Shown: one piece after another, positions 7,859 to 61,088 of the stretch
Layout of the letters: each line of letters starts with the position of its first letter
How positions within the stretch are numbered: position 1 is the stretch's first letter
NCBI RefSeq assembly: GCF_019649055.1
Contig: NW_026570339.1
Location: forward strand, 248,001 to 312,000
DNA length: 64,000 nt
Source of the DNA: Paramacrobiotus metropolitanus
Taxonomy: Eukaryota > Tardigrada > Eutardigrada > Parachela > Macrobiotidae
Reading direction: 5' to 3'
The notes under the pieces: model-generated
Database searches by the model: none
Told to the model about the DNA's origin: nothing
What the model saw: the letters and a program-made list of their open reading frames with translations, nothing else
Position numbers and translations under genes: made by a program

Positions 7859-8751
7859 AAAAAAAATACAGCCTTTATTGCGATTCAGTCCCTACCCAGG
7901 CTCGCAGGTCCTGGAATTACTGCCAGAACACTATTATACTTATAGTTGCGTGAAAGAACAGGACAATAATAATTACTTATGTTCATTTATTTCGTTCTTA
8001 TATGCTTTTTTTTCGCCTTACTGTCGCTTAGTCTCCCGGCATTAAAACCCAAAACCTCCAGCAGCATTAAATTTAATTTTAATTTCGTGAAATTTTCAAC
8101 AAAATTTTCAAAACAAAATGGAGTACAAGGGAAAGCATGGAGAGACTAAACTGAAAATCTGGCCTGTTCTTTCTTACAACTGTCTTATTTTATTACAATC
8201 GCAATAAGGTAAAGTGTAACGGAACAGATTGCCACAACAACAATAATCGGAAAACATGAGATCGGACACTAATCTGAAACAGCATCATTGTAGACCGTGC
8301 TGAGGACGACCTGCGAGGAAGAACGACTAGCGTGCATGAACATTGAACAAATTACTTGGGCCTGGTACTGTCCAGTCCTTGTTAGATTTATTTAAAAAGA
8401 TAACATATGAGCAAGACACAGCAATAGTCATTAAGTTTTTAAACAGCGACTTCGACTGCGGTAAGGCGGTAACCGGCCGGATGGTGCTGGCTATTTTGTC
8501 CATACTGATCATGGCGTCACGTGCGACCATTCCCCTTGAACCTATTGCGAGGTGGTAGTAGTCCGCCTGCCAGCCGGCGCCGGTTAGTTGTTGTACCAGC
8601 GGGGTGTAACGCGTGTGTTTCCGTGCCTCGGCATTGGCGAATCCATGTACGGTCTCAAAGGGAATGGTCAGCTCCGCTAAAATAAGACGCTTCTCCCGGC
8701 GGTTAGTACAACACAAGTCTGGAGAAAGGGAAGTAGGGAAGACATCAACAA
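7859..8751. mobile_element. Insertion in satellite with retroelement fragment
   Basis: The satellite stops at ...atatctaa (7858) and resumes at ctaattttgaat (about 8752), so the satellite word CTAA is present on both sides. The insert is not satellite. Its first part holds a small inverted pair (gtgaaagaacagg near 7950 and cctgttcttt near 8162, with ttgcgatt/aatcgcaa next to them). Its second part carries a minus-strand coding fragment (8327-8716). Confidence 0.6.
8327..8716 (-). pseudogene. Retroelement polyprotein C-terminal fragment
   Basis: A 129-residue open frame contains ILAELTIPFETVHGFANAE and, further on, LVQQLTGAGWQ and AIGSRGMV. This spacing of an 'ELT(I/V)PFE' strand, an A..RK..RY..LV helix and a '(V/I)GSRG' end recalls the nuclease-like C-terminal module of invertebrate reverse-transcriptase polyproteins, as I recall that family. 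No reverse transcriptase core is present, so the copy is truncated. The last ~50 residues (Ile/Ser-rich) do not resemble the family and may be readthrough into flanking DNA. Confidence 0.5.
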
Positions 8752-12695: not shown

Positions 12696-15600
12696 AAATT
12701 TACGTAAACAAAAAAACATTTCAACCGTGTACAATTTGCGCAGTTTATCTAATTTTGAATAAAAAACACAACTTATGAACGGAGTTCCAACAAGTGCGAA
12801 AGATAAATTTTTTACATATTGTTATTGTAGGAGCATGTATAATCAGCCCAAAAAATCTTATTTTACGAAAAAAAATCCATGATTAAAGTAACATTAGTGC
12901 CATATATTTAAATTTGCATAGATAATCAGAATTTTTATCCTATGCACAACAAAGGCGATTTCTGTTATTTCTCACAAATCGGTAAGCCCACAGCCCTTAC
13001 ATTTAGGTAGAAACAACTTAATTTACGAAACAAAAAACACTTCAACCGTGTACAATCTGCGCGATAAATTTAATTTTAAATAAAAAATAAGACCTATGAA
13101 CGGAATTCCAACAAGTCCGATGTGTTTAATTTTTCACATTTTGTTATTGTCGGAGCATGTATAATCAGCCCAAAAAATCTCATTTTACGAACAAAATCCT
13201 TGATTAAGGTAAGATTAGTGCCATATATTTAAATTTGCATAGATAATCAGAATTTTTGCCATTAGAACAATAATTGCGATATATCAAATTTTAAATAAAG
13301 AATACAACTTATGAACGGAGTTCCAACAAGTGCAATGTTTTTAATTTCTCACATATTGTTGTTGCCTGAGCATGTATAATCAGCGCAAAAAATCTTATTT
13401 TACGAAAAAAAATCCATGATTAAAGTAACATTAGTGCCATATATTTAAATTTGCATAGATAATCAGAATTTTTATCCTATGCACAACAAAGGCGATTTCT
13501 GTTATTTCTCACAAATCGGTAAGCCCACAGCCCTTACATTTAGGTAGAAACAACTTAATTTACGAAACAAAAAACACTTCAACCGTGTACAATCTGCACG
13601 ATAAATTTTATTATAAATAAAAAATAGAACCTATGAACGGAATTCTAACAAGTCCGACGTGTTTAATTTAAGTTAAATTTTTTACATATTGTTATTGTCG
13701 GAGCATGTATAATCAGCCCAAAAAATCTTATTTTACGAACAAAATCCTTGATTAATGTAAGATTAGTGCCATATATTTAAATTTGCATAGATAATCAGAG
13801 TTTTTGCCATTAGAACAATAATTGCGATATATCAAATTTTAAATAAAGAATACAATTTATGAACGGAGTTCCAACAAGTGCAATGTTTTTAATTTCTCAC
13901 ATATTGTTGTTGCCTGAGCATGTATAATCAGCGCAAAAAATCTTATTTTACGAAACAAAATCCTTCATTAATGTAAAGTTAGCGCAATATCTAAATTTGG
14001 AAAGATAATAAGAATTTTTATCCTATGCACAACAAAGGCGATTTCTGTTTTTTCTGACAAATCGGTAAGCCCACAGCCCGTAAACTTATCAAGAGACAGC
14101 TAAATTTACGTAATCAAGCAAACACTTCAACCGTGTGCAATCTGCGCGATATATCTTATTTTGAATAAAAATTAGAACTTTTGAACGTTACAACAAGTGC
14201 GATATTTTTTATTTTTCACATATTGTTATTGTCTGAGCATGTATAATCAGCCCAAAAAATCTTATTTTACGAAACAAAATCCTTGATTAAGGTAACATTA
14301 GCGCCATATATTTAAATTTGGATAGATAATCAGAATTTTTGCCCTTAGAACAATGATTGCGGTATATCAAATTTTAAATAAAAAATACAGCTTATGAACC
14401 GAGTTCCAACAAGTGCAATGTTTTTAATTTTTCACATATTGTTATTGTGAGAGCATGTATAATCAGCGCAAGAAATCTTAGTTTACGAAAAACAAATCCT
14501 TGATTAAGGTAAAATTGGCGCCATATATATTTAAATACGCGTAGATAATCAGAATGTTTGCTAAAAGAACAATAAAGGCGATTTATATTATTTCCTGCAA
14601 ATTGTTTACCCCACAGCATGTACATTTAGGTAGAAACAACTTAATTTACGAAACTAAAAACACTTCAACCGTGTACAATCTGCGCGATAAATTTAATTTT
14701 AACTAAAAAATAGAACCTATGAACGGAATTCCAACAAGTCCGATGTGTTTAATTTTTCACATATTGTTATTGTCGGAGCATGTATAATCAGCCCAAAAAA
14801 ATCCTATTTTACGAAAAAAAATCCTTGATTAAGGTGACATTAGCGCCATATATTTAAATTTGCATAGTAAATCAAAATTTTTGCCCTTAGAACAATAAGG
14901 GCGATTTGTGATATTTCTCACTTATTGTTAACCCCACAGCAAGTAAAATTAGCGAGAAACAGCTAAATTTAAGTAATCAAGAAAACAATTCAAACGTGTA
15001 CAATCTGCGCGATATATCTAATTTCGAATAAAAATAGAGCCTATGAACGGAGTTCTAACAAGTGCAATGTTTTTATTTTTTCACATACTGTAAAAATCCT
15101 TATTAAGGTAAAATTAGCGCCGTATATTAAAATTTGCATAGATCGTCAGAATTTTTGCCCTAAGAAAAATAATTGCGATATATCAAATTTTAAATAAAAA
15201 ATACAGCTTATGAACGGAGTTCCAACAAGTGCAATGTTTTTAATTTTCACATAATGTTATTGCCCGAGCATGTATAATCAGCGCAAAAAATCTTTTTTAC
15301 GAAACAAAATCCTTGATTGAGGTAAAATTAGCGCCATATATTTAAATTCGCATAGAAAATCAGAATTTTTGCCAATACAACAATAATTGCGATATATCTA
15401 ATTTTGAATAAAAAATACAACTTATGAACGGGGTTCCAACAAGTGCAATGTTTTAAATCTTTCACATATTGTTATTGCCCGAGCATGTATAATCAGCGCA
15501 AAAAATCATTTTTCACGAAACAAAATCCTTCATTAAGGTAAAGTTAGCGCGATAAATTTGCATAAATAATAAAAATTTTTATCCTATGCACAACAAAGGC

Positions 15601-17985
15601 GATTTGTGTTATTTCCCACAAATTGGTAACCGCACAGCAAGAAAAATTGGCGAGAAACAGCTAAATTTACGTAATCAAGAAAAGACTTCAACTGTGTACA
15701 ATCTGCGCAATATATCTAATTTTGGATAAGAAATAGAGCTCATAAACGGAGTTCCAACAAGTGCGATATCTTTAATTTTTCACATATTGTTCTTGTCTTG
15801 CATGTATAATCAGCGCAGAAAATTAAATTTTACGAAAAAAATCCTTCATCAAAGAAAAATTAGCGCAATATATTTAAATTTGCATAGATAATCAGAATTG
15901 TTGTTCTCAGCTCAATAAGGGCGATTTGTGTTATTTCCCACAAATTGGTAACCCCACAGCACGCAAAATTAGCAAAAGACAGCTAAATTTACGTAATCAA
16001 GAAAACACTTCAACCGTGTACAATCTGCGCGACATAGTTGATTTTGAATAAAAAATAAAACTTATTAGCGGAGTTCCAACAAGTGCTGTATTCTTAATTT
16101 TTCACATATTGTTATTGTCTGAGCATGTATAATCAGCGCAAAAAATCTTATTTTACGGAAAAAAAATCCTTGATTAAGGTAAAATTGGCGCCATATATTT
16201 AAATATGCATAGATAATCAGAATGTTTGCTAAAAGAACAATAAGGGCGATTTATATTGTTTCCTGCAAATTGTTAACCCCACAGCACGTACATTTAGGGA
16301 GAAAAAACTTAATTTACGAAACAAAAAACATTTCAACCGTGTACAATTTGCGCAGATTATCTAATTTTGAATAAAAAATATGACCTATGAACGGAGTTCC
16401 AACAAGTGCGAGGGATCAATTTCTCACATATTTTTATTCTAGGAGCATGTACAATCAGCGCAAAAAATCCTATTTTCTGAAAAAAAATCATTCATTAAGG
16501 TAAAGCTAGCGCGACATCTAAATTTGCATAGATATTAAAAAGTTTTTTATTCTAAGCACAATAAGGGCGATTTGTGTTATTTCTCACAAATTGTAAACTC
16601 ACAGCACGTAAAGTTAACCAGAAACCGTACACAGGTTTTATTTTTTATTCAAAATTAGATATATCGTGCAGATTGTACACGGTTGAAGCGTTTTCTAGAT
16701 TTTTTAAATTTAGCTGTTTATGTTTAGCTAAATTTACGTAATAGAGAAAACACTTCAACCGTGTACAATTTGCGCGATGTATCTAATTTCGGTTAAAAAA
16801 CAGGACTTATGATCGGAGTTCCAACAAGTGCGATATTTTTAATTTTTCACATATTGTTATTGTCTGAGCATGTATAATCAGCGCACAAAATTTTATTTTA
16901 CGAAAAAATCCTTCATTAAAGAAAAATTAGCGCAATATATTAGAATTTGCATAGATAATCAGAATTGTTGTCCTCAGCACAATAAGGCCGATTTGTGTTA
17001 TTTCTCACAAATTGGTAACCCCACAGCACGCAAAACTAGCAAGAGACAGCTAAATTTACGTAATCAAGAAAACACTTCAACCGTGTACAATCTGCGCGAC
17101 ATATCTAATTTTGAATAAAAAATAAAACTTATTAGCGGAGTTCCAACAAGTGCTGTATTCTTAATTTTTCACATATTGTTCTTGTCTGAGCATGTATTAT
17201 CAGCGCAAAAAATCTTATTTTACGAAAAAAAGTTCTTCATTAAGGTAAAGTTAGCGCGATATCTAAATTTGCATTGATAATAAGAATTTTTGTCCTAAGC
17301 ACAATAAGAGCGATCTGCGTTATTTCTCACAAATCGGTAACCCCACAGCACGTAAAATTAGCGGGAGACAGCTAAATTTACGTTATCAAGAAAACGCTTC
17401 AGCCGTGTACACGCGCGATATATCTTATTTTGAATAAAAAACGGAACTTATGAACGGAGTTCCAACAAGTGCGATATTTTTAATTTTTCACATAATGTTT
17501 TCTTCTGAGCATGTATAATCAGCACAAAAAATCTTATTTTACGAAAAAAAGTTCTTCATTCAGGTAAAGTTAGCGCGATATCTAAATTTGCATTGATAAT
17601 AAGATTTTTGTCCTAAGCACAATAAGGGCGATTTGTGTTTTTCTCACAAATTGGTAACCCCACAGCACGCAAAATTAGCGGGAGACTGCTAAATTTACGT
17701 TATCAAGAAAACACTTTAGCCGTGTACACAATCTGCGCGATATATCTTACTTTGAATAAAAAACGGAACTTATGAACGGGATTCCAAAAAGTGTGATATG
17801 TTTAATTTTTTAGAGCCTTTTAATGCCAATAAATGTTCATTTGGCGCGAAACAGTCAATGTTATATAAACGAAACGTCTTTAACAGCATGCAATAAACGC
17901 GATATACCTTATTTCGCATAAACCGTATGACTTGTGGCCTTAAATACAATAAGTGCGATACGTCATACTTTTCTGTTGGCTGCAC
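12696..17985. repeat. ~322/215-bp satellite, block 3
   Basis: The longest uninterrupted satellite tract, with full and short units mixed. A block of about 540 bp (one long plus one short unit) at 12,845-13,385 is repeated almost unchanged at 13,385-13,930. From about 17,800 copies become more diverged (ttggcgcgaaacagtcaatg), and the array fades near 17,985. No unit holds a meaningful open frame. Confidence 0.9.
16634..16805. repeat. Inverted satellite junction (palindrome)
   Basis: From 16,634 to about 16,719 the satellite runs in reverse orientation (attcaaaattagatatatcg, then gtacacggttgaag, then aaatttagctg). From about 16,723 it returns to the normal orientation (tttagctaaatttacg, then cttcaaccgtgtacaa, then atctaattt). 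The two arms of about 80 bp form a head-to-head palindrome, the only orientation switch seen in the array. Confidence 0.85.
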
Positions 17986-18998
17986 ACAGATGCAGACTTA
18001 ACACTATGAAAAGAAGAAGACTAGTCTTCGCATAGGAATAGTGTTAACGGCTTGTTTTTGGTTCGTCTATGGAGATTCGTAACCAAAATGTTACACCCCT
18101 TTGATTCGCCCAATTTAGGGGAGTGGTTTAGTATTTTCCGGAGGGCAAAACCCTGCAGAGTGCAGTGAGTTATGCATACATAAAGATACTGGATACGTTA
18201 TAATACAAAGACTGTAAGTATATACGGCTTGCTTTTCAACGGTTAAAACCTTATAAGAGGACAGTTTAGCATTGCAGGCAGTGTAACTGTGCAACCATCC
18301 ACAGTTGTTGGTTTTTTTTACTTAAGTAAGCCGTTGACCACTTGTTGTGTTCCAGACTATATCAACTTGAACGCTAGCTTTGAGCGCCATCGACTCATTC
18401 AATTTTGTTGAATCTCCCAAGCATGGACTTTGTAAGGATATTAGCAATTACATTAAACGCAAAAGCCTTATATGCATGCACAAAGATACAGGATCAGAAA
18501 TTCATCAAATTTTCTAGAAAAGGCCTTTTTATTTGAAACCTGCCAAGGCCAAATTCTAATTACCGGTTCCCGAGCACCAGAGAGACTTCAGGCGCCGGCT
18601 ATGGAGCAAAACGTACAAATGTTGCATTCTTATCACTTACTCAAAGTGAACTTATAATGTTTCATAAGCGTGTTTCCGCATGTATTGATATTTCTTGACA
18701 GCGACAAAAGTTGTCACAGAAAACAGCTTGCTCTCGTAAATTTTTGAAGTTGGTTTGATTTAATCAATAACTGATCGAGAAGCAAGAGTTGGAGTTATCT
18801 GCAAGTCCAAAGAAAACAACCAGCCGTCAGAAACTGCATTAAACCGTCGCCTGTTTGCTTCTTTGCGGTTGTATCAGTTACAGTGCGGCTGTTAAAGGTT
18901 TTTTTTCAAAATATCAAATTTTTCAATTTGGTTCAATCCACGCACAATTAAGAGGATAATTTTAGGGAGGAAATGAGTTCTAGAATGAGCACATTCTC
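17986..18998. other. Non-satellite insertion, no gene
   Basis: Unique-looking sequence interrupting the satellite. No recognised protein and no splice-flanked coding block. It runs into the inverted-repeat element at 18,999. Confidence 0.4.
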
Positions 18999-19391
18999 AT
19001 TCCAGCAGCACGCTGCTGGAATGAAAATCTTCACAAATTCGTAACTTTGTTATTTCCGTGCTAAATTTTTTTGTATGCGCTTAAAAAATTAAAATAATGC
19101 ATACTATTAGGCAGAATAGCTGATTTTCTGGTTTCGTTTCAAGGTTTGGCACTGAGAGCATACGTGCTTAGCATAGCCGCCTATTTGAAATCTCGAATGA
19201 GTCTTCCCTAGACAGGTATGTTAACATCAAAGGCTCATAGTGAATAACCCGAAAATAAAAACGAAAGATCAGTTGTTTTGCCTAAGGGTATGCGTTATTT
19301 TGTATTTTTTAAGCTTATACAAAAGAATTTAACACGAAAATTAACAAAGTTACGAATGTTTGAAGATTTTGATTCCAGCAGCGTGCTGCAT
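18999..19391. mobile_element. ~390-bp inverted-repeat element with palindromic tip
   Basis: The arms at about 19,007-19,090 and 19,304-19,388 are reverse complements over some 85 bp with scattered mismatches. Shared words are gctgctggaat, aaaatcttca, attcgtaactttgtta and gcttaaaaaa. The left tip is itself a palindrome (attccagcagc, ac, gctgctggaat at 18,999-19,022). The interior of about 210 bp is non-coding. It looks like a MITE or fold-back element of unknown superfamily. Confidence 0.65.
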
Positions 19392-19699
19392 GGGCCACCG
19401 CACGCGTACTTCAGTTACGTTACTGCTAGACAGTTGGCAAACTTCGCTAGCGGTATGGCAATCAAAATCGACAATCAGTTCAAGAAAAAATAATGGACGG
19501 CTCTGTAAATAATATGCTCTCGTCGTACATTGTATAGTATTTAACCATCATCCAAACTTATTGCAATCAGGTGCGTGCCGCAATTTAGTTAAAGACTCCC
19601 GTACACCGTTCAGGAACAAGCCGTATACAGACTATAGAAAGTCTCATGTATCCCGATATATACCACAGCCGACGGAACAATTTCCGCACGAAGTGTTTT

Positions 19700-20950
19700 T
19701 ACATACATTTAGAGTTCCATACTTTTTACATACTTTTTACTTACATACTTTTTACATACATGTCAGAGCATTTTCAATCAGCGCAAAAAAGGTTATTTTA
19801 TGAAAACAAAAAAAAAACGTTTGAACAGTGTTCAATAAGCGCAATATACGTGATTTTGCATAAACAATTAAATTTATGAACGCGGTTCCAACAAGTGCGA
19901 TATGTTTAATTTTCCACAGCCTTTCAATGTAAGAGCATGTACATTTAGCGCGAAACAGTCAATTTTATGAAAACAAAAGTTCTCTCAACCGCATACAATT
20001 AGCGCGATATATCTAATTTTGCATTAACAGTAAGATTTGCGGTTCTAAAGACGATAAGAGCGATATGTATTATTTCTCACAAATTTTTAAAGTATGTACA
20101 ATCAACGCGAAACAGCTAATTTCACGAAAACAAAAACCTGCTTCAACAGTGTACAATTAGAGGAATATTTGTAATTTTGCATAAAAAATAAAAGTTATGA
20201 ACGCGGTTCCAACAAATGCGATATGTTTAATTTTTCACAACCGTTAAATGTCAGGGCATGTACATTTGGCACGACACAGTCAATTTTATGAAACCAAAGG
20301 ACTCAACAGTGTACAATCAGCGCTGTATATTGTATCTAATTTTGCATAAACAATAAGAATTGTGGCCCTAAGTACAGTAAGGACGATATGTATTACTTTG
20401 CACAGATTTTTAATGTTAGAGCATGTAGAATTAGCGGAAGCCAGCTAAATTTACTTTTGAAAAAGGCCTCCAAAGAGTAAAATTTGCGCGATATATCTGG
20501 TTTTGTATAAACAATATGACTTATGGACGGAGTTACACCAAGTGCGCTATGTTTGATTTTTCACAACCTTTCAATGTCAGTGCATCTACAATCAGCGCAA
20601 AAAAACCTATTTTCTATTTTACGAAAGCAAAAAAATGCCTCAACACTCAACAGGGTAAAATTAGCGCGATATATATGATTTTGCATAAGCAATAAGAATT
20701 GTGACCCTAAGTACAACAAGGGCGATATGTATTATTTATCACATATTTTAATTGTCAGAGCATGTACAATTAGCGCAAAAAAGCTTATTTCACAAAAACA
20801 AAAAAATGCTTCAACAGTGTACATTTAGCGCGATATATCTAATTTTACATAAGCAACAAGACTTATGAACCTAAGCTTTACAAGGGCAAAATGTTTAACT
20901 ATTACCAAACTTTCATTTTCAGAGCCTGTACATGCAACGCAAAACAGCTA
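19700..20950. repeat. Diverged edge of satellite array
   Basis: It starts with a short ttacatactttt microsatellite (about 19,709-19,760), then monomers of about 160 bp recognisable by gagcatgtacaat, agcgcgatatatctaattttgcata and gaacgcggttccaac. The two half-units are more alike here than in the core array, as expected of older or ancestral copies at an array edge. The satellite is last recognisable near 20,950. Confidence 0.8.
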
Positions 20951-21136
20951 ATTTTTTGTGAAGAAAAAACACCTGTTTGTGGTTTATTAAGCATGTTTCA
21001 GTTTAAACTAAATGAAAAACTTAAGATACAGGTTAAAAGGAAAGGAAATATAGTCCTTTTTCGTCTCACTTGCTGCTCCTTGACAGGTATACACATAAAA
21101 ATAAAATAATATAAGGAAACACATGTTTTTAAGGAA

Positions 21137-22919: not shown

Positions 22920-25900
22920 ATGGCGTCCACGAAGAACCAGGAGGGTCTGGCGGCGCTGCAGCGCGATCCGCAGCGGATCCGCAATATCTGCATTCTGGCG
23001 CACGTGGACCACGGTGAGAGGCAGAAAGACAGCTGTCTGTGCTTTGACTCGTGACAGTGGACAGTGTGTGCTGTGCAGGGAAGACCTCGCTGGCCGACTC
23101 GCTGCTGGCCAGCAACGGGCTCATCTCGCAGCGCCTGGCCGGCCGTCTGCGCTACCTGGACGACCGGCCGGACGAGCAGCAGCGCGGCATCACCATGAAG
23201 GCCAGCGCCATCACGCTCAAGCACACACTCAGCGACGGAGGAAGCGAAGGAACGCCTGCACACTCAGGCACCTTCCTCGTCAACCTCATCGACTCCCCAG
23301 GTATTCTCCCTCACCCAAGATTTCTGGCTTTCTGTTTTCGTTCTTCCTATTCAGGTTTTCTAACAGGCTGTACAAGTATTCTACGTTTTCTTATTAAATT
23401 TGTAGTCAGCGACATTATTCTTATCTTTTTTAATGCATTTTATGCTTTATTATATTTATCTATTTTTTCATTTTCTTTTTTCTAGATGTAGCTATTAATT
23501 TAGGCATTTTATTCTGTATGTTGTGGCTGTCGGATTGGCGTAATTGTATTTAGTTTATTTGAGTGTTTGAATGGTTGTGGTGGTTGTGCAGGCCACGTGG
23601 ATTTCTGCGGGGAGGTGTCGACGGCGGTGCGCGTGTGCGATGGCGCCCTGGTCGTGGTGGACGCGGTGGAGGGCTGCGCGGCGCAGACGGTGCAGGTGCT
23701 GCGCCAGGCCTGGCTGGAGAACATCCGTCCCTTGCTGGTCATCAACAAGGTCGATAGATTGATCAGCGAGCAGCAACTGTCGCCCGCCGAGGCCTACCAG
23801 CGCCTCCTCCACATCCTCGAGCAGATCAACGCCCTCATGGGCGCCCTCTTCGCCTCCCACACCCTGCGCCAGACCGAGCTCAAGCGCGAACGACAACGCG
23901 CAGGTACCGCGGACATGGTGGTGTTGTCTGGTGTGGTGATGAGCGTCTTGCGTTGCAGAGGAGGACGACGCCAAGGAGAACACGGCGGAGACGCTGTACG
24001 ACGACTGGGACGCCGGGCTGGAGGCCGCCGACGACTCGGCGCTCTACTTCCAGCCGGAGAAGGGCAACGTCGTCTTCGCCAGCGCCCTGGACGGCTGGGG
24101 CTTCTCCATCGACCGCTTCGCCGAGTTGTACGCCAAGAAACTGGGCCTGAGTCGGCGCGTGCTCAACCTGACGTTGTGGGGCGACTTCTGGCTGGACGGG
24201 AAGGAGAAGCGCATCAAGAAGAACGCGCGCGCCCGCGGCAAGAAGCCGCTCTTCGTGCAGCTGGTGCTGGACAATCTCTGGCAGATGTACGACGCTGTCG
24301 GGGTGAAAAAGGACAAGGCGCTCGTGGAGAAGATGGCCGCCGCGCTCGGCTTGAAGATTCATCCGCGCGATCTCCGTCTCGACCCCAAAGGGCTCATCTT
24401 CGCCCTCTGCTCGCAGTGGCTGCCGCTCGGTATGTGCAGCCACTATTTTACCCTTCGTTATTGAATTTTTTGCTGCCATCGCATTAGGCAAGGCCGTCCT
24501 GGACGCGGTGTGTCGGCAGCTGCCCAGCCCGGTGGAAATCAGCGAGGAGCGCGTGGAATCCTTATTAGCCAGCCAGCAGCCCTTCGCCGCCCTCCCCGGC
24601 CCCACCCAGGCCCTGAAACCGGCCTTCCTGGCCTGCTCCGCCGCCCCCTCGGCCCCCCTCATCGCCTTCGTCTCCAAGATCTTCGCCGTCAGTTCCAAGC
24701 ATTTATCGAACCACAGCAGCGCTGCACCGACCCGGGGACAGGCGCTGTCGCTAGAGGAGATTGCGGCGAGACGGGAAGCGGTCCGGCAGCGGCGGGAGAT
24801 GGCCGAGGGCGATGGGGTCACGGTGGAGGAGCCGGTGGCGGTGAGCGGTGAGGAGAAGGGCGAGGAGTTGGTCTTCCTGGCCTTTGCGCGCGTCTTCAGT
24901 GGGACGCTGAAGGAGGGTGACGAGGTGTTCGCGTTGGGACCGAAGTATCAGGTGGACGCGGCGGAGGCGGAGGGCGGACTTCCGGCGCATGCCAGTCGCG
25001 TGGTGGTGGGCGCGGTGTACTGCATGATGGGGCGGGAGATGCAGCGGATGCCGGTGGCCTACGCCGGCAATGTGGTCGGTAAGCGCTGCAGAATTCACCA
25101 TCGTTGGTTTAGAATTTAAATCGTTTAGTCTCCACTGTCCGGCTTGACTGCATAAACTGCAGACAATCGTAGTGTGTTGGCATTGATGACTGAACAGAAA
25201 ATCAACATTCAGATTACTGCATTCCATAAACATACCGTACATCAGCTGGTATTATGCGTTTGAATTGAAAAACTTCAATTTTTTAATTGAAAAAAATGGC
25301 TGGAAATAGTACATGCTAACTGAGAAAGCACGAATTTTACTGGAAATTTTATCGAAAGGCAGTTGACCGAAACAGTAAAGCAATGTAAAATTGTACAATA
25401 AACACCTGTTTTTGACCAAACATTTTCCTTTGCATTGATTTACGACGACAATTTATTACAATTTAAATTGACTATTTAACCCAAGTATAATTAATTTAAT
25501 TAATTGTAAGTTTCAGCTTCAGTTGGAATCATTTGTGCTTTGAACCCTTAGCGAGAGTATGTGTCGTTTGCAGGCATTGCCGGGTTGGAGGGCGTGTTGA
25601 CCCGGTCGGGGACGCTGTCCAGCACGCTGGCCTGTCCGGCCTTCACCGACCTGTACACGACGTCCCTGCCCATCGTGCGGGTGGCCGTAGAACCGAAAAA
25701 AACTAGTAAGTTTCCGCTGCGTTAGTTCCCTTTTGTTTGTACATAGTTGGCAGTTCTAGTCAGTAAAATTTGCGATAAATATTGACGATTTTTTATCTTG
25801 TTGTAGCGGATTTGCCGCGTCTGGTGGAGGGTCTGAAGCTGTTGTACCAGGCGGATCCCTGCGTGGAGGTGCTGCTGCAGGAGAGCGGCGAGCACGTGCT

Positions 25901-27149
25901 GATCACGGCCGGCGAGGTGCACCTGCAGCGCTGCATCCGTGACCTCCAGGAGACCTACGCCAAAGTGGACATCAACGTCTCCCCACCCATCGTGCCTTTC
26001 CGGGAGACCGTCCTCACCACCGGCAACGGTGGCGACGCCAGCGTGGAGATGGAGACCCCCGACCGGATGTACCGACTGAAGATGCGCGCCGTCTCCCTCC
26101 CGGAAGCCACCACCCGCCTCCTGGAGGACAACGCGGGGGTGCTGAAGACCCTGCACGAGCGACGCAAGGGCAAGCGCCGCCCGGAAGTCGCCGCCGTCGA
26201 CGAGAAGCTGGAGAAGTTGAAGGGGGAGCTGCGCGCCACGCTGGAAGGGAGCGGGATCACGCTGGAGAGTATATGCGCCTTCGGACCGCGGCACTGCGGA
26301 CCGAACGTCCTGGTGAACGCCAGCGCGACGCCACTGCCCAGTGTGTGGACGGCCGCGGAACAGGGCAGCGGTTTGATGGAGAACGTGGCGGCCGGGTTCA
26401 ACCTGGCGACGCTGGCCGGGCCGCTGTGTGAGGAGCCCATGATGGGTGTGGCCTTCGTCGTCGAGGACCTGCAGATGGCGCCGCGGGAGGACGAGGAAGC
26501 GGCGGGGTCGGTGGGGGGTGGCCAGGTCATCTCCAGCGTCAAGGAGGCCTGTCGCCGCGCTTTCCAGGCACAACCGCAGCGGCTGATGCTGGCCATGTAC
26601 TACTGCGTCATCCAGGCCAGCAGCGACGTTCTCGGTGAGTCTTTTCAGTGGATTTATGGCGATTTGTATTTATTTCTAATTAATATCATTTTCTGGGATT
26701 TTATTACCGTATCTTGTGATTGTTTTGGTGTTGATTTGGGGGCGGTGGTTGCAGGGAAAGTGTACAGCGTGGTGAGTCGGCGGCACGGGCGCGTCGTGAA
26801 GGACGAGATGGTGGAAGGCTCGGAGGTGTTCAGCATCGCGACGCTACTGCCCGTGTGCGAGAGCTTCGGACTGGGCGAGGAGATGCGGAAGCGCAGCAGC
26901 GGACTGGCCTTGCCGCAGCTGACCTTCAGCCACTGGGAGGTGCTGGAGGTGGACCCCTTCTGGACGCCCGGGGCGGGGGGAAGGACGGCCAGCGAGGAGG
27001 ACTACGAGCTGTACGGCGACAAGGCCGACGCCGAGAACCACGCGCTCAAGTACGTCGGCCAGGTCAGGAGGCGCAAGGGCCTCTTCAACGCCGGCGAACA
27101 GGTCGTCGTCTCCGCCGAGAAGCAGCGCACCGTCAAGCGCAACAAGTGA
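22920..27149 (+). CDS. EFL1: Elongation factor-like GTPase 1 (EFL1/Ria1)
   Basis: EFL1 is the cytoplasmic EF-2-like GTPase that, with SBDS, evicts eIF6 from nascent 60S subunits. Eight exons: 22920-23013, 23079-23300, 23592-23903, 23959-24429, 24488-25078, 25574-25705, 25807-26634 and 26755-27149. All junctions are GT/AG and keep phase, giving 1,014 residues (relatives are about 1,100). G1 AHVDHGKT lies at residues 27-34, G2 RGIT at 67-70, G3 DSPGH at 103-107 and G4 NKVD at 157-160. Exon 5 has the domain II strand [15 protein letters not shown]. The end, with VRRRKGL and AEKQRT, matches EFL1 rather than EF-2, and the EF-2 diphthamide region is not conserved. Exons are strongly GC-rich. The start is the first ATG before the G1 block. 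Long antisense frames here are shadows. Confidence 0.96.
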
Positions 27150-28205: not shown

Positions 28206-30518
28206 ATGCCGCGCTACGGAATGCACTTGATATGGATTGTCCTCATATATTGGCAAGGTACATACTTTAATACTGGATCAATCTTTTGGGTCGTGTTATT
28301 TTAAGGGAATGTTAAGTAGAAAACAGCAGGACATCAGTACTTTCTTAAAACCACATTTTATTCTATTAGTGATTTTATACTGTTTGTTAATAGTTTCTTT
28401 GCCTAATCATATTAGTTACTTTGCTAATATATTTGTTATTATTTTAATATTTTATTTATTAATTTGTTAATCAGTCAGTTATTTTGTACATGATCGTGAC
28501 CTAATAATTATGTCATCACATAATCCGTAAATGCATACTTAAGTTATTTTGCTAATAATAGCTTTGTACAGCATGTGTTTGTCGTGCGTAGTTGTGAACA
28601 GTTTGAGCGAGGATGACCACAGCGCGTACATGGAGCAGCCGTACCTGCCGGTGCAGGCGCCGGGTCCGGGCCCGGGCAAATCGGCCAACGTCAGCCTGTA
28701 CAACAACAGCAGCAGCAGCGCCGTGGCCGACCAGCACTACGGCGACGCCGCCGCCGGCTACCAGCCGTCGTACCGCGCCGCCGCCCAGGGCCACATCCGC
28801 ATCGACCCCGCCGTCAAGGACGCCGGCTACCTCTCCGCCTCCGCCAGCTACCCCGCCGCCGGCAACTACAGCAGCCCCGCCGTCAAAGAGCAACACTACG
28901 GCCAACCCGTGGCCCCCGCCAACTACCGACCCTACCGCAACGACGCCCACAACTACGCCCGCACCGTCAACGCCACCACCAAGCAGGCGCCCTACCTCGG
29001 CGCCGGATACGGGGGATACGCCGCCAACACCTCCGTCACCGACCAACACTACGGGCAACCCTACGCGGGCGACTACTCGCGTCCGTACCGCGCCGGTAAC
29101 TACGTTCCCACGGTGGACACCGCTGTGAAGAACTCCACGTACGGACAGCAGTACGCCAGCGCCGCCCCGGCGGTGGCTGACCAGGACTACGGGCAACCTT
29201 ACGCCGGTGAATACCGGCCTTACCGCGCGCAGAACTACCGGCCCAACTACGACCCGGCCGTCAAGGACGCCGCCTACGGGCTTCAGTACGGCGGCGCCAC
29301 CCCGGCCCAACCCTACCCGGCCGCCGCCCCGGTGAAACAACAGTATTACGGGCAGACTTACGCCGGCGACTACCGTTCCTACCGCAGCGACGCGGCGAAC
29401 TACGCGCGCACGGTGCAGCCGGTGAAGGACGCCGGCTACCTGCAGCCACAAGCGGCGTACACCCCGGCCAACGGCACGGTGCGGGAGCAGTTCTACGGGC
29501 AGCCGCACGCCGGCGGCGGTTACCGGCACTACCGCACCGACGGCCGCAACTACGCGCCCAAGATGCAGGGCGTCCAGGATGCGCCGTACCTGAGTCCGGC
29601 GGGAGACGGCGGGGAGTACCACGAGGAGCACTACGAGGACGAAGATTACGCGGCCGACGGGTTATGCGCGCCGGCGCAGACGCGCGTGGACCGCACGCTG
29701 TACTGCGGCATCCCCAACGTGCTGCGCGGCACCCAGGTCGTCCATCCCGAAAAGGTGGGTGCCGCTTTATGACGAAGTTGACCGGTGTTATAACGTGACC
29801 TTTGCAGTTGGGCGGGGAGTGGTTCCAGTACCGGCGCTCGCCCATCGGCCCGCTGCAGATCAACCCCGTGCTGCGCGTGCGGCCGCTGGGCCGCGCCGAA
29901 ATCCCTTCGACGCACTATCCGGCGATGGCGGCCTGGTACGCGTCCTCCTGGTACCAGAGCTCGCAGGACTACTCCTGCAGCGACATCTTCTACGCCGGCT
30001 TCCTGGGGCTGCGCGGGACGCAGGTCATGGACACCTACTTCCCGGAGCGGGCGCCCATCGGTATGTCAGTCTCCTCTGCTATACCACGTTGAGAAAAAGC
30101 TTGAAAACTAAATAGGAACGCAAAATCATATATATAAGATAATCAAAATGACTGCGGATGACCTTTGGCAGAGTATACCATCTTCTACACGTTGCTGCTG
30201 GACGAGCGGCTCGGTCTGTGGATCAACTACGAGTGCCAGAAGTACAGCGCGGCGAGCGGCGTCTGCGCCCGGCCGCACATCTGCGTCAACGTGCGCGAGC
30301 GCCCGGACCTGCTGTCGCGCGACGAACAGGCGCGGCTGGACGCCGCCATCAACCAGGCCGTGGCCCCCTTCTGCCTGTCCATCACGCAGCTGCCCAAGCA
30401 GATCTACACCAACAGCAAGAGCCCCTGCCCCGAGCCCAAGGTGCCCGACTGGCTCAACATGAAGATCCAGGGCCTCGCGCGCTACCAGCGCAAACTCGAT
30501 CTCTCCACCCACAATTAA
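28206..30518 (+). CDS. Secreted Tyr/Gly/Pro repeat protein, lipocalin-like C-terminus
   Basis: The model has four exons: 28206-28257, 28592-29754, 29808-30060 and 30172-30518, all GT/AG and in phase, giving 604 residues. The N-terminus MPRYGMHLIWIVLIYW followed by a polar stretch looks like a signal peptide. The exon 1 to 2 acceptor (gtag at 28588-28591) is chosen because it alone keeps phase and completes the signal peptide. Exon 2 encodes six repeats of about 45-50 residues around (V)xDQHYGQPYAGDYRPYR, NY and (V)KDAxYL. The last ~230 residues have eight or more Cys and a G-E-W-F start, then IFYTLLLDERLGLWINYEC, reminiscent of lipocalin conserved regions 1 and 2. Likely an extracellular or matrix protein. 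The lipocalin call is inference and the function is unknown. Confidence 0.8.
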
Positions 30519-31172
30519 AGTAGACTAACGACTTTACTCACTGTACCTGATCCTGCCGAATTCGGCATTTGCAGTGTTGGATTATTATTGTTTCTTGCAT
30601 TACGGTTATGCATTCTTCTTGTTAATTATGTAGCGTACTTGTAGCGAACGTCTTAACTCTTACGAAAGTGATGTGGCCGGTGTTATTCTTGGACTGAGTG
30701 TGCTAGTGTATCAGCTTCGTATTCGCAGTCACGATCAATTGTTACAGTACTTGAGCGTTGTATGCATCCGCATGGGGCATCAGGTTTAATTTGGTTTATC
30801 GCTTAACGTCTCTAGATAAGCACAAGGAATCACTCCTTATCAACATCTACAGACAGTTATAAATATACCGAAACGAGGTAAAAGAGTAACACGAATCTAC
30901 AGCCTATATCTATCTATATACACAGTATATACCGGACACTGACAGTACGTACAATATATTGCAACAATTATACTTATACTACATAGTAAACTGTTATCGT
31001 TAGATGTACAAGTACCGTATATCCGTACTAACACGAATTATAAGCAAATCTTGCTCGCCGGTGAAACGAATAGCAAAGGTCATCCATCCGTCTGGTCAGT
31101 ATGGGAAAGGGCTGCTCCTTGTGTGGTTAAATGGCGCGCGGAGATACTCTGTGGATGATCGTACGTTCAGTT
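30519..31172. other. Convergent 3' flanks, no gene
   Basis: AT-rich sequence between the 3' ends of the repeat protein (plus) and the Spatzle-like gene (minus). It probably contains both 3' untranslated regions. Tatctatatata-type runs are near 30,900-30,960. Confidence 0.5.
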
Positions 31173-33113
31173 CTATCCGCTTGATGCGGGGTCGGCCAGC
31201 ATGCACTTGCAGGCGCAGTGCGAGGGGAATTTGAACCAGTCCATGAAGATACCCTGGCCACATGTACAAATACACTGTCATATTTTTAGTCCTATTTAAT
31301 ACAATTAGAAGCCTTCGGCAGTCGTTAATATCTGTCCACTGTCTAGCATTATATGGCGAAGGGTGGTGCTTCGGCGGGATATACAGTATGTACTTTTATA
31401 ATAGTACTTTTGTAGGTCTGCGGCACTGACGTAAGTGACGTACCTTGCAGTTGTCGTGGGGGTCGTAGGCGAGGAGGCGGAACCAGCTGTACTCCTGGCT
31501 GCACCAGCAGGGCCGGCTGGGGTGGCAGCGATTGTGCATTGTGCCGGCACTGCCGCCGGCGGTGCCCTGCTGCGCCGGCGTCAGCGGGAGGCCGCTGCTC
31601 GTCATGGAGCGGGCGCACTTGACGGTGTGGACGGCCTGCTCGAAGGGCGGACTGTTGACGATGGCCAGCTTCACGCCCGTCCCGTTCACCGCCCAGAACG
31701 GCGTCACCAGCTCCTCTGCAATGCAGTATACAGTCTGTACAGTGTGCACACGTCCGACACTAGTCGTATCCACCTTTACGCCGCCACTATGTATGCGTCT
31801 TCGCATCACTACATCGCTACATATCTACGAGGTATATACTAGTACATCCATGAATTCATATATACATATATCCATGAAAATTTGTACAAGTATGCAGAAT
31901 AGTCTAATAAGTATAAATTAAAGTTATATATGTAACAAAGGCATGAGCGGATAAGCAACTAGTATAGTATATACTGTAAAAAGTTTTGACAATGAATGAG
32001 AAACGAGTAGAACGTGTCTATATAAGTTATAGTATCTATATATTGTATCGTTACAGGGTAAGTGCCTTAGTGTCTATATAATATTGCTTTGTATTAATTT
32101 TATGGATAAAGCGTACTGTACATCGCTAGCTGTACTAACTAACCTTCAACAGGGCAGAGATAGCTGGTGCTGTAACAAGAAACCGGCATTGAGCGTATAT
32201 AGTGACTGCATCTGCGTGTAAGTGAGCGGTCAGCACAAGGACGCTGTAAGAACGTGCAGCAGCAGCCGGAAATGAAAGCAATACTATCAAGCCCAAATGA
32301 GAAATAGAAAACCAATATTATTATACAGTATCTGTCCGCTTACAGCGCCGGTTGCGGCCCGCCGGCACCGGTCCCGGCCCCCGCGGCGGCGCCGTTCTTG
32401 ACCATGCGTTTGCGGCGCAGGTCGCTGTTGTCCAGCTGGCCGTTGGGTCCGTTGGGCTGGTCCTCCTCTTCCTTGCGGATGAGACTGCGTGACGACACTG
32501 AGCCAAACATGCGCCGCATCAGCGCCTTGTTCTCGTCAATAAACATAGAAATGTCGCTCCTACATGAACCGTTTAAATTGGTCAAATTATTATAATCAAC
32601 CGAGCTGTATATACAGCATGCATATACATAAATAAAGGTCACTCAGTACGTGAACAGGCGAAGAAAGTATCGTGCACACCTTGGATAGAAGATGCCGGGC
32701 TTGGAGCAGTAGTCCTGGAAGACGCCGTCGCACGACAGCCGGTCGCTGAAGGGCACCTTGTGAAAGGCGCCGCCCATGCCGATGCCGACGCCGGGGAATA
32801 GGTCGGCGATGGGGGCGTTGGCGCTGACGCTGGCGGCGGCGTGATGGCTGTGACTGTGGCTGTGGCCGGAATCCGCCAGGGTCTGCGCTGAGGAGAAGAG
32901 CTGCGCCCCGGCCGCCGGGGCGCTGCCGGCACTGCTCGGGGCGGCGGCGGCGGCGGCCGCGACGGGTACGGCCGTCGGTGTCCCGTTACTTCCGGGCGAC
33001 TGCTGACTCTGCGCCGCCGCAGCACTCAGACAACATATGATACAGGCGGAAACTACAGCGGGTAAAGCCGATATAGATAACGACCCGGCGACATATGTCC
33101 CCAATATCCCCAT
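31173..33113 (-). CDS. spz-like: Spatzle-family cystine-knot ligand precursor
   Basis: Spatzle proteins are secreted, protease-activated ligands of Toll receptors in immunity, patterning or neurotrophic signalling. Five exons on minus: 33113-32680, 32559-32344, 32169-32144 (only 26 nt), 31715-31444 and 31253-31173. All are GT/AG and in phase, giving 342 residues. Residues 1-35 form a signal peptide (hydrophobic to CLSAAAAQ). An Ala/Ser/His-rich pro-region follows, and RRKR at 193-196 is a convertase-type site. The cystine-knot domain starts at Cys222 (SYLCPVEEE), continues with TPFWAVNG, AVHTVKC, CSQEYSWFRLLAYDP, and ends GIFMDWFKFPSHCACKC. The domain has nine Cys (seven is usual). The WFRLLAYD and FMDWFKFPS motifs are typical of the family; the subtype is not assigned. 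Confidence 0.88.
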
Positions 33114-33812
33114 TGCCGCTCCGAACTTCCATCCAACCGCACAATTCCCGTACGCACCGCCGCCAAGATCGGAGAAGGCAGTGGAGGGATTATACCGGCA
33201 AATACAATCACCAACCTACACCGGAAACCATTACTCGTCCACTTGTCCACCACCTTGAATCGATGCTATTCGGCGAAAATGTAATTATGAGCGCTAACCA
33301 GCAGTCATTGTAATTGCCGCGGAAATTGGGAAGATTGCTGGCAAGTCGCATGCGCAGTTGATAATTATTAATCATGCAAATCGCGTCCGCTCACGTGCAG
33401 TGCAACGTGCAACGAATAGTTGTACAGAGCAGTGAGAATATAATTAACGTGTACAGGAGGAAGTGATGGTTGAAGTATATGTACAACGAAGAGATATTTA
33501 ACTGATGACGGTCAGTATGAAGTGGATCGAGCAGGCAACTCAAGTACAAGTATTGTAATACTATGCGTGGACTTGTGACGGATTACCTTTGCACTGGTAA
33601 CCCGATAATACAGATATACAGGTAACATCCGGGCAGCGGCAGATGCCGCTGATCATTTTCGCTCAAACGACACCTCCCCATTGCGCCTCCTGTCTTTTCT
33701 ATGCGCTGAAGATAGGTATTTTCAATCATCGCTGCCTGCTCGTATTTTATATTATAGCGATACACAACTACATCTACAATGTATACCGATAATATAGATA
33801 TGTCACTTCTAT
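33114..33812. other. Upstream region of the Spatzle-like gene
   Basis: No coding block recognised. It should contain the promoter and 5' leader of the minus-strand Spatzle-like gene. TATATTATAGC-like words occur but none can be assigned. Confidence 0.4.
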
Positions 33813-33905
33813 CATTGCCGTTGCTCTAGGAGTATAACGAGAGGAATGAATGAACATTCCATTCATTCATTCCTCTGTTACTCCTATAGCAGAGCAACGG
33901 CAGTG
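33813..33905. repeat. Fold-back repeat, ~40-bp arms
   Basis: The left arm (cattgccgttgctct, aggagtat, gagaggaatgaatg) and the right arm (cattcattcctct, actcctat, agagcaacggcagtg) are reverse complements with a few gaps. The loop is only a few bases. It would form a long hairpin. Confidence 0.8.
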
Positions 33906-34726: not shown

Positions 34727-36222
34727 CTAGGTCACTGTCCGGTTGCTGCTGAGGTCAGCGCAGCCGGGTCCCGTGTAGCCTTCACGGCGATCCCAGAAGA
34801 AGAAAATGGCCGTCAGGATCAGCATGACAATCTGCATAATGCGTCCGACCACGTTGCCACATTAGTAAAACACAGATAGTGCGCAGAATTAATAATATAA
34901 TCATTCTGTAGGGTTAATCGCTGAATTCGAGCATTTACCGGGAAAATCGTGGCGCGTAGAACGGTGACCATGCGGAAGGCCTTAAACTCTCCACGACAAA
35001 AGCGCTTGCCAGCCGCCAGCAGCGTCCGGATGATGGTGACCTTGCGCTTGCGCGACTTGCCGCTCGTCGAAGCAACGGCGCTGGCCGTACGTACTGTCAT
35101 ACTGACCTGCACATACGAGAGTACGTAACATACTGTAATTTATGCAATTTAGCTACAAGCCCGCCCAACAATTCTTTGACCGCTGTAAGCGGGAATTTAA
35201 AGAAACGTGGGCTTGAGCCATTTAATGTGCTTCGACACGTCACGCCACATGAGTCTGCGTATTCAACGTAAATAAGCAACAAATCTGCCAGAATCTTTAC
35301 AAATTTATTCCAGTGCGACATGAGAAGGTCTTCCACGCAGGTGGCGCTCGAATTGAGTACTGATATTTCGTTCTTGAAATTGTCCGTATCCAGCATGACT
35401 TGGCCAATAGTGTGCACCAAGGAGAAATACGTAGCGGCGATGACACATAAGACCGGCACGCCCACGCTGCTCTCCATCTTGGCGTGCAGGTTGCACAGTT
35501 TATCCAAGTCATCAGCGTAACGGCGCGCCAACGGATAGAGCTCTTTTTCGGACATCCGGACGGGAGACGCTGTGACAGGTCGCTCAACTCGCTGCGCAGC
35601 CGCTGGACGGTTTCGTTGTACTGATGAAGCACGAGAGATACCATGGCGAAGCTGGCGTAGACGATCAGGCAGCTAAAGGTCAGCAACACGACCATCCAGG
35701 ATTCGGCCAGCAATGTCGAGATGGTGAATGTCGCGTACTGCTCCGTGGCGGTGTTGCCGGTGTTGTCCAGAATGCGCTTGAGGGAGATTCCGCAGGTGGC
35801 GGTGAGGAAGACGGCGCTGGGGCCGAGGGCCACCGCCAGACCCCGTCCGATATATTTACGCGGCGCTGCTGGCTGTTAGGGGCGCAAGTGGATCCACCAC
35901 CAGACTGGTTGTCGCGATCACAGCCGTATCCGGATCGCAGTTTGCGGCAAATCTGTCGCTGGCGCCGGTGAAAGTACACGGCCGCCAGCAGATTGAGCAG
36001 GGCCAAGGCCGAACTGACCTGCGAGAAGCCGGTGGCCACGAAGAACAGAACGGGATTGTACTTGTAGCGCGCACAGGCTTTACGGTAGTCCAGCGTGCCG
36101 TTCACCGAAAGGTCAACAAAGTCCACGACAACGATAAGGATGTATAGACTGACCAGCATGAAGCTCAGGATGAAACGGCGCACCACGGACGACGTTAACC
36201 CCAGGGAAGCCATGATTACCAT
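34727..36222 (-). CDS. Gustatory-receptor-like multi-pass membrane protein
   Basis: The minus-strand gene is split by introns of about 50-100 bp. Clear parts: a first exon from the ATG at 36222 with hydrophobic spans (RFILSFMLVSLYILIVVVDF and LFFVATGFSQVSSALALLNL); a second block with GLAVALGPSAVFLTATCG and WMVVLLTFSCLIVYASFAMV; a third block to 35157 with YADDLDKLCNLHAKMESS and VPVLCVIAATYFSLVHTIG; then exons 35106-34939 and 34831-34727, the last reading IVMLILTAIFFFW to the stop. About seven membrane spans, the central LxxLxxLHxxM loop and the short tail recall insect 7tm_7 gustatory receptors. The hallmark TYxxxLxQ motif is absent. The borders of the first two introns (about 35,880-35,930 and 35,530-35,610) are not resolved, and a decayed copy is possible. 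Confidence 0.55.
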
Positions 36223-36755
36223 GCACGAACGAAAGCAGTCTGAGAAATTTCGGCAGGTGTATTATTGTGTTACCGAGGCGGTTATGGGCGACAGGCAGTT
36301 GACGCAGAAGAAGAGGATCAGTCAATTGCATACTGCCGTTAACTGTATAATTCTTATATACATATTCTACGAGTACAGTACAGGTAGGTGTTTCGAGCAC
36401 GTATAACAACATATACATGCACTGAGGGCATCAGCTCAGTCAGAAATTATGCGGTCGCCGCGCCGGACTCCTCGGTCGGCATCCGGAGGGAGGACCTTAG
36501 AATTCTGGGTGCGGGCTAGCTGTTTACTGCTGCCAACGTTACAGCCGGCTTTTTCCAGCAACATACCATAAATCCCGCTGTTAGCTCGCAGGGCTGTGTT
36601 GCCAGTGGACTGCACTATATACAGTGCGTACGTGCTTGCGATTTCAACAAGGAAAACCGAACCCGTGTGCAGGTATCTGATGGCTGCCAGACACCTCAAA
36701 CTGGGACGGCATTCGGCGATTTATGAGGTCTTTGACGGGAACAGGTACAGTATAC
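36223..36755. other. Intergenic upstream of receptor-like gene
   Basis: No recognised coding sequence. It contains the likely promoter side of the minus-strand receptor-like gene and the left flank of the element at 36,756. Confidence 0.35.
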
Positions 36756-38080
36756 GGGGTACTAATAAACCCTGGGAATGGGATTTGGGAACTGGTATTG
36801 GGAATTGGTATTGGTAATGGTATCGGTAATGGGAATCAGGGTAATTGCTGGGAATGGTATTTTGTAATAGGAATGGGAATGGGAAATGATTGATAGAACA
36901 GAATACGCAGTTGTTTGAAACATAACGGCCACCTTCGAAAAATACTGTTTGAAAAATAAAAAATGTTCAAAAAATTCGTTAATTACGATATTACAGTATG
37001 ACTTTGCTCGTGGTCATTATGTTTACCTGTTATATTCGAAGTAATGGTAGTATTTTATTTGTTATTAGGAAATGAAGCTATGGTCTAAGGCCAATCCTAT
37101 CCACCCCGGTTTTTATAGTCAGTGAGTCACCCTTTTACGCATCCCGTTAATTACAGACACCCTTATTTTTTATTACTTAAGTAAACACACCCTGATGCCG
37201 GTTTTTATGGGCACCCGTTTTGATTTGTATTTTCACAAATGTTGAACCATTTCTCTGCACTTAAAATTTCCATGCCAGTAGGTTTCTCCCCACTTTTTAA
37301 TAACGGTATGTAGCGCATCCCTGTTTTCGGTTCTTTCAGATGGCTCTTCGCGCAACTACAAAGTAATAGACCGATGGTTCAATAGCTGCCAGACTGGCAG
37401 TAGTTTCCGGCATTTACTTTTTGAGTGTTGGGCTTTCTCCCAGAAAGGTTTATGACCGGCTCTGAATGAAGTTTTGTAGCATTTCTGGCATAATCAGAAA
37501 GATCTTCGTGATTTTTCCAACAATCGTAATATCAACAAATAACTTAACCCACCAAAATCAAGTAAGTACTAGAACGAGTGCGCATATCGTTTTGAAAATT
37601 GGTGATTCTTAGGTACTGTTATACTGCTCTATTAATTTGTAGTCATTAACCTTTCAACATTTCCAGAATAATAGTTAGTTGAAGCCCAGATTTCTTATTA
37701 AGCAGCACGATTTCGGCGAGGAAAATAGAAATTAAATTGTGACTCCTGCTCCCTGTGCCTTAGCTTTTTGCGTAGAAACATGATTATAAGAGATGCCATA
37801 CGCCAAAACTTTCACGCAGAAATTAGGAAAAATCTGGACTTTAGTGGCAGAAGTTGAGGAATTTTTTTGATGTTCCAACTTGGCTTGGCAGGGCTGTATG
37901 TACTGATATACAAAGAACATCTTCGGCTTCGCATGCGCAATTTTATCAATCATTTCCCATTCCCATTCCCGTCACGAAATACCATTCCCAGCAATTACCC
38001 TGCCCATTACCAATACCATTCCCAATACCAATTCCCAATACCAATTCCCAAATCTCATTCCCAGGGTTTATTAGTACCCC
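36756..38080. mobile_element. 1.3-kb element with long minisatellite-bearing inverted ends
   Basis: The left end begins ggggtactaataaaccctgg. The right end is its reverse complement (ccagggtttattagtacccc, ending at 38080). The arms extend about 140 bp (36,756-36,896 and 37,944-38,080) and consist mostly of a degenerate gggaattggtatt-type minisatellite. Flanking 7-mers agtatac (36,749-36,755) and attatac (38,081-38,087) differ at one base and may be the target duplication. The 1-kb core is AT-rich with no transposase. Non-autonomous DNA transposon of undetermined superfamily. Confidence 0.75.
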
Positions 38081-48339: not shown

Positions 48340-49020
48340 TTATTATTTTATTATTATTTCTTCGTGGAGCAGGTAGCCCATTTCCGGCTAGGGTGACATA
48401 CTAGCATGGGATTTTAAACCTGGCCAAACAGTAACTGCACAGAGAAATTCCCAGCACGCTTAAACAAAATTTACACTGCGCAACGCATGCTTAAACGCAC
48501 TAACAGATCGAACACTAAAAATATCAGAAAAATTAGAATCCACGAAAAATTTCCACATTTTATTAAGCTTCCAAGCCAAGGTTGTTTCGCCAACTTTTTT
48601 CTTTGCTTTCGCCTTGATTATGGTCCGGTTCCCTTTTCGAAGATTGTACGGTTTCACTTCCTCTTTAAATTCCACCATCTCGCTGATGTACTGCGGCACA
48701 TGAAATTTTTCCGGATGCATGATTTTGTACAACCACGTCGCTTCGTTTTGTCTCCATCTTGTGAACAGAGAAAGGATCCCGTGCTTGGTCATAAACGATT
48801 CCGTGGATATTCCAGAGTAGTTTGCAGCCGCTCGCAGGCCGCTACGATGCATGGCGGCCAATTTGTCCCGCAAGCGCACAGATGCCCCGCTCCACACTGT
48901 AGAGCAGTAGTCCAGATGAGACTGGACAAAGGCATAGAAAAGCGCAATGCGTTGGGATGTTGGCAGGCCAACTTTCACACGATTTAACAGTGATATGCCG
49001 TACCGTATAAATACATAAGC
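48340..49020 (-). mobile_element. 5'-truncated LINE (non-LTR retrotransposon)
   Basis: Minus-strand reading gives the end of a non-LTR reverse transcriptase: RYGISLLNRVKVGLPTSQ, then ALFYAFVQSHLDYCSTVWSG, a helical thumb-like part, and a basic C-terminus with the stop at 48460. The family pattern is the 'LPxxxxxxLYxAxVxSHLxYxxxVWG' region of Jockey/CR1/I-type elements. After the stop, about 100 bp lead to a TAA-rich tail (minus strand gaaataataataaaataataa, 48,340-48,360), typical of such elements. Catalytic motifs are missing because the 5' end is cut off near 49,020. The remaining frame is intact, suggesting a fairly young insertion. Confidence 0.78.
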
Positions 49021-49023
49021 GTA

Positions 49024-49068
49024 TACGGCAGCCGCAAAATTAGCAATGTTAATTTTGCGGCTGCCGTA
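49024..49068. repeat. Perfect 19-bp hairpin
   Basis: The arms tacggcagccgcaaaatta (49,024-49,042) and taattttgcggctgccgta (49,050-49,068) are exact reverse complements around a 7-base loop gcaatgt. It sits exactly at the truncated 5' end of the LINE. It may be a junction product of the insertion or part of a separate tiny element. Confidence 0.9.
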
Positions 49069-49490
49069 CACAACAAATGTACATAACAACATAAGTGCCG
49101 TACATAACAAATATTTATTACTGTATTTGTGCCGGTAAAAAAGCTACTGTAGCCTGTAGGTACTGCACCGTACAGATACATTTACCGGATGGCGTCACCG
49201 GAAGTAGGGGTAGACCGGCAAATTAAATTACAGCGCAAAATGCCGCACATGTACTCGTAAGTCGTATCTACACGAATATACACACCCGTACGTATTATAA
49301 TGTAATGATATTTTTATAATATTAAATTTTCTTTCATCAGATCACAGTGATAATCCGCAAATACTGGGAATTTGTCGCAAACTGACCCAGCCGCACTCGT
49401 GACTTTTGCGCGGCATATACATTAACGTAGCGGCTAGTTATTTTTAATTGTAATTATTGAAGATAATAATTATCCCGCGTACGTTCTGTG
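49069..49490. other. Intergenic, AT-rich
   Basis: No gene or recognised repeat. Confidence 0.4.

Positions 49491-58103: not shown

Positions 58104-61088
<2,985 letters not shown>

Follow-up and report, generated by a model that had tools for sequence, protein, structure and literature searches.

Spätzle ligands of Drosophila (Spz1-6; Pfam family PF16077) are built from a prodomain, a basic cleavage site and a cystine-knot domain, and furin cleavage has been published for the fly protein DNT-2/Spz5 (PMC11661795). In Spz, Spz2, Spz3 and Spz5, the knot is reportedly interrupted by introns (PMC8296651); two extra knot cysteines are reported in Spz3 and Spz4, and Spz4 reportedly lacks a conserved knot intron (PMC2586362). 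A neurotrophin gene of Daphnia has its knot spread across four exons, and the neurotrophin group is described as clustering apart from the Spätzles (PMC2772990). Exons of at most 30 nt are called microexons (PMC7821500), and short exons are said to be often overlooked, both in that source and in a report on plants (PMC8831610).

Here, we analysed a 64,000-nt stretch of the tardigrade Paramacrobiotus metropolitanus (assembly GCF_019649055.1, contig NW_026570339.1, positions 248,001 to 312,000; hereafter the window) that holds a Spätzle-type gene on the minus strand. Its predicted product shares with Drosophila Spz1-6 the prodomain, the basic cleavage site and a knot domain matching positions 2-96 of the 96 in the PF16077 profile, and it shares extra knot cysteines with Spz3 and Spz4, having nine, three beyond six. 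As in the Daphnia neurotrophin gene, the knot is split over several exons, but Pfam here gives Spaetzle only. What sets the locus apart from the Spätzle family is that the first knot cysteine sits on a predicted tiny exon of its own, which in the best model is 26 nt long and flanked by strong splice sites like other microexons, with 62- and 68-nt forms as alternatives. Neural cassette microexons often preserve the reading frame, whereas the 26 nt here are not a multiple of three and skipping them destroys the product. Among the literature matches listed (titles and abstract starts, searchable only under the unaccented spelling), no Spätzle microexon is mentioned, and the passages seen of PMC5591008, PMC1847501, PMC5126049 and PMC12027997 contain nothing on knot exons.

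Gene model and family membership

Five minus-strand exons, running from 33113 to 31173, splice into 1029 nt with a terminal stop and no inner one, and the spliced translation gives a predicted precursor of 342 aa. This open frame agrees with a sequence-only reading of the locus, which had assembled a Spätzle precursor from four larger exons and a 26-nt block. The coding part of exon 1 (32680-33113, 434 nt) carries the ATG, a leader that appears hydrophobic by eye, and an Ala/His-rich prodomain with Cys 128 and Cys 136; exon 2 (32344-32559, 216 nt) holds the end of the prodomain and a convertase-type site, RRKR. The predicted microexon, exon 3 (32144-32169, 26 nt), reads (L)TSYLCPVE(E). Exon 4 (31444-31715, 272 nt) encodes the body of the cystine-knot domain, and exon 5 (31173-31253, 81 nt) the knot end, GIFMDWFKFPSHCACKC, and the stop codon. 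All four introns (120, 174, 428 and 190 nt) are of the GT-AG type; their GC content is 34-44%, as compared to 65-69% in exons 1, 2 and 4 and 54% in the 26-nt block. The block is preceded by ttacag and followed by gttagt, just as the earlier reading had it, and its predicted junctions would join CCGGCGCT to CACCAGCT and GTTGAAG to AGGAGCTG. We find the model with a third exon of about 26 nt convincing as a prediction for a Spätzle-type ligand gene.

The sole family found in a Pfam search of the precursor was Spaetzle (PF16077), with a score of 57.3 bits (gathering cut-off 27); the profile search that had been suggested as a check of the joined protein thus gave the expected domain. A piece of 89 residues from exon 4 by itself scored 27.9 bits, just over the cut-off, and exon 5 alone (26 residues) reached 16 bits, under it. 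RRKR occupies residues 193-196, between prodomain and knot. Spätzle domains have at least six cysteines, and nine follow RRKR in this protein, at residues 222, 259, 289, 295, 297, 315, 329, 331 and 333, so that both the nine-Cys domain and the convertase-type site claimed earlier were located in the spliced protein. The first knot cysteine, residue 222, is the 26th residue past RRKR; the choice of the six cysteines that build the knot is one that we infer. On sequence grounds, membership in the Spätzle family is firm. Searches of solved structures with the single sequence found no Spätzle chain, and no relative was confirmed in viral contigs (1 pattern match) or prokaryote contigs (83 pattern matches). 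At the domain end, FPSHCACKC places a His where Drosophila Spz has its interchain Cys. Because of this replacement, the interchain link in the tardigrade protein may differ from that of Drosophila Spz.

The predicted 26-nt exon and its alternatives

Since exon 2 ends with two spare bases, a regular-site join of exon 2 to exon 4 loses the frame, and in the spliced translation without the 26-nt block exons 4 and 5 are out of frame and the Spaetzle domain is destroyed. The block had been said to repair the phase exactly. It does restore the frame, but it is not unique in doing so: of the AG..GT blocks no longer than 80 nt in this intron, 14 keep the phase without a stop. Shuffling the intron 1000 times gave 12.9 such blocks on average, and a phase-restoring block as such is therefore expected by chance. 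Four of the 14 blocks, of 20, 26, 62 and 68 nt, end at the same donor (32144) and carry the same cysteine; the earlier reading names only the 26-nt one. A block with the pattern aromatic–aliphatic–Cys–(P/R/Q) occurred in 1% of the shuffled introns and one with Cys-Pro in 3.9%.

As further controls, we used 541 overlapping stretches of 628 nt from the same window, from which we excluded those that lie in the gene or begin within the satellite region, under a null that combines the Cys-spacing rule with splice consensus matrices. A block whose cysteine is spaced from exon 4 as in the gene was present in 161 of the 541 stretches and Cys-Pro at that spacing in 25, while none (0/541) had both splice sites scoring as well as those of the 26-nt block. 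The splice-site quality of the block is more than chance.

Splice sites were scored over the 128 AGs and 147 GTs in 30900-33300 with a consensus matrix that had not been fitted to this genome. The 26-nt block has the top-ranking acceptor (1st of 128) and the second-best donor (2nd of 147). The donors of exons 1, 2 and 4 rank 3rd, 11th and 1st, and the acceptors of exons 2, 4 and 5 rank 37th, 11th and 36th; the matrix is a rough guide, because the accepted acceptors of exons 2 and 5 rank so low. By eye, three homeobox introns in the window likewise end in -ACAG or -GCAG.

Computation shows directly that the spliced frame is open, that the product matches the family, how strong the splice sites are, and that the tiny exon raises the domain score. 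The mature region reaches 60.3 bits and matches from profile position 2 when the 26-nt block is included, and 53.7 bits, matching from position 7, when X stands in its place. Because the block bears on only about five profile positions, the 6.6 bits gained are a modest difference. One unrelated 14-nt block without Cys, which served as the chance control, gave 54.5 bits, leaving the 26-nt block a margin of 5.8 bits. TSYLCPVEE, put forward earlier as the start of the knot, holds up in this role, as the block supplies Cys 222 along with the higher score. A small exon carrying the first knot cysteine is the best-supported model.

How long this exon is, and whether it is needed at all, can be weighed on the same scores. 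We think it rather unlikely that exon 3 is real with donor 32144 but starts elsewhere, at 32211 (68 nt), 32205 (62 nt) or 32163 (20 nt), or exists in several forms. All four lengths are in phase and score 60.0-60.3 bits; the 68-nt version (32144-32211) has an open frame, 60.1 bits and an acceptor ranked 7th of 128 by the consensus matrix. However, the acceptor score is 4.8 for the 26-nt exon and falls to 1.9 for 68 nt, -1.5 for 20 nt and -5.0 for 62 nt, and the longer forms would place extra cysteines just ahead of the knot, two at 68 nt and one at 62 nt. The exact length of 26 nt thus appears the most likely of the four options. A minor 20-nt form is possible, since tandem CAGs stand six bases apart: the stretch between the acceptors CAG/CACCAG covers 32164-32169, and use of the second one (ranked 39th of 128 by the same matrix) would yield an exon without Thr-Ser at 60.0 bits. 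It is highly improbable that there is no small exon and that exon 4 instead starts further upstream, in the TVYCIAEELVTP frame with a different cysteine, and joins exon 2 directly. Although 11 direct-join models preserve the frame and the acceptor at 31734 ranks 18th of 128 by the consensus matrix, that acceptor requires a donor ranked 38th of 147, and the acceptors that can pair with the regular donor of exon 2 rank 53rd, 99th, 100th and 110th of 128. The cysteine of the direct joins also lies one residue nearer to LVTP than that of the microexon model. The extended exon 4 (YCIAEELVTP) scores 52.6 bits and matches from position 7, as compared to 53.4 bits with another donor and acceptor and 53.7 bits without a Cys; the four direct-join models scanned of the 11 span 52.6-53.8 bits, with no gain.

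A different question is whether the 26-nt exon is included constantly. It may be a cassette exon present in some transcripts only, whose splicing turns the ligand on or off, a reading that overlaps with the 26-nt model and does not exclude it, but one that we consider distinctly unlikely. The predicted skip product has an open frame of 359 aa with a shifted tail of 143 aa containing one Cys, and mRNA decay presumably need not follow, because the stop of the skip frame (31096-31098) lies in the last exon. Alternative splicing of Drosophila spz is on record (PMC3303723; PMC2772990), but the variation reported for fly Spz is N-terminal to the knot (PMC2772990), and the strong acceptor and donor of the block fit constant use. 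The shifted frame is open across exons 4 and 5 in 40% of 5000 codon shuffles, so we do not count the openness of the skip frame in favour of a switch. A regulated switch, in which inclusion would give a knot-bearing Toll ligand and skipping a secreted prodomain with an arginine-rich tail of 143 residues and no knot, is improbable; if true, the splicing of 26 bases would set the output of a Toll ligand.

Neighbouring genes and the rest of the window

Homeodomain exons of Pitx lie at about 45.5-46.95 kb; among solved structures, PITX2 matches them best (1e-31). Another homeodomain of the paired type lies at about 52.1-52.4 kb, for which the structure search returned paired-type relatives with DUX4 as the best. 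We take this second homeodomain to be Dmbx-type. The Spätzle gene, Pitx and the presumed Dmbx-type homeobox gene follow each other in that order over 31173-52609, within about 21 kb, and both homeobox genes lie within 20 kb of the Spätzle gene. In a spider and a harvestman, spz3 and Pitx are reported to be one gene apart, separated in the harvestman by Dmbx, and a Pitx-Drgx-Dmbx linkage is noted for all arachnids of an earlier survey (PMC12717030). Dmbx is described as present in arachnids and a myriapod and absent from insects (PMC6107062). The tardigrade locus resembles the arachnid linkage in having a Spätzle-type gene near Pitx and what we take to be a Dmbx-type gene, but differs from the harvestman in order, as Pitx is in the middle here; the stretch from the Spätzle gene as far as the last Pitx exon that we located measures about 16 kb (31.2-47.4 kb), whereas the spz3-Pitx distance is 0.09 Mb (harvestman) or 0.53 Mb (spider) in the arachnids (PMC12717030). 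The locus would thus represent a compact form of the spz3-Pitx-Dmbx type of linkage. The Pitx and presumed Dmbx-type neighbours, reminiscent of the published arachnid linkage, may point to a spz3-type ligand.

Upstream of the Spätzle gene, a near-palindrome was seen by eye at 33818-33900 (CCGTTGCTCT..AGGAATGAATGAAT / ATTCATTCCT..AGAGCAACGG). Further along, overlapping ORFs with hydrophobic stretches occupy 35097-36261 on the minus strand. These stretches would fit a protein that crosses the membrane several times, perhaps a chemoreceptor; the three ORFs scanned gave no Pfam match. A stretch of about 1.3 kb at 36756-38080 looks like a mobile element: it is bounded by inverted arms (78 and 62 nt, with 95% and 92% complementarity) in which TGGGAATGGTAT-like tandem repeats occur. 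The minus-strand ORF at 48460-49110 is without a Pfam match and, as far as we can judge, resembles the end of a non-LTR retrotransposon polyprotein.

On the plus strand, an EFL1-type GTPase gene lies in pieces at 23567-27149 (Pfam GTP_EFTU, EF-G domain 2, EFL1 and EFG_C); on the minus strand, a gene at 58964-61136 has a WH1 domain in two pieces and a proline-rich region and presumably encodes an Ena/VASP protein. A Tyr-rich repetitive open frame at 28549-29772 (plus) contains repeats such as DQHYGQPYAGDYSRPYR and a leader-like start, and has no Pfam match. Satellite-like arrays, mostly with a unit of about 320 bp, lie in several AT-rich blocks over about 6325-20954, and a GC-rich region with short tandem repeats over about 1300-3700. 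No tRNA and no Rfam match at gathering scores was found in the window.

Predicted function and implications

We hold with good confidence that the locus encodes a ligand of the Spätzle family, with the spz3/spz4 group as the likeliest assignment, in five coding exons, the third of 26 nt, and with a secreted pro-protein as its predicted product. Between the two members, spz3 fits better than spz4, because of the knot intron that Spz4 reportedly lacks. Secretion, cleavage, dimerisation, Toll binding, subgroup and constant inclusion of the small exon are features that we infer from the family or the sequence. The five coding exons would give rise to a secreted pro-protein, which a furin-type protease may cut after RRKR (193-196) to release the cystine-knot domain; the freed domain would then dimerise and bind a Toll-type receptor. 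The 26-nt microexon is probably included in all transcripts, and without it the frame would be lost and no knot would be made.

The ligand family itself is known, and the tiny exon is the unusual feature of this gene. For annotation, a missed microexon would lead to a Toll ligand gene being called broken or to the loss of its knot. If arachnids share the exon, it would mark an old pair of introns where the knot begins and, speculatively, could explain truncated spz3 models in that group.
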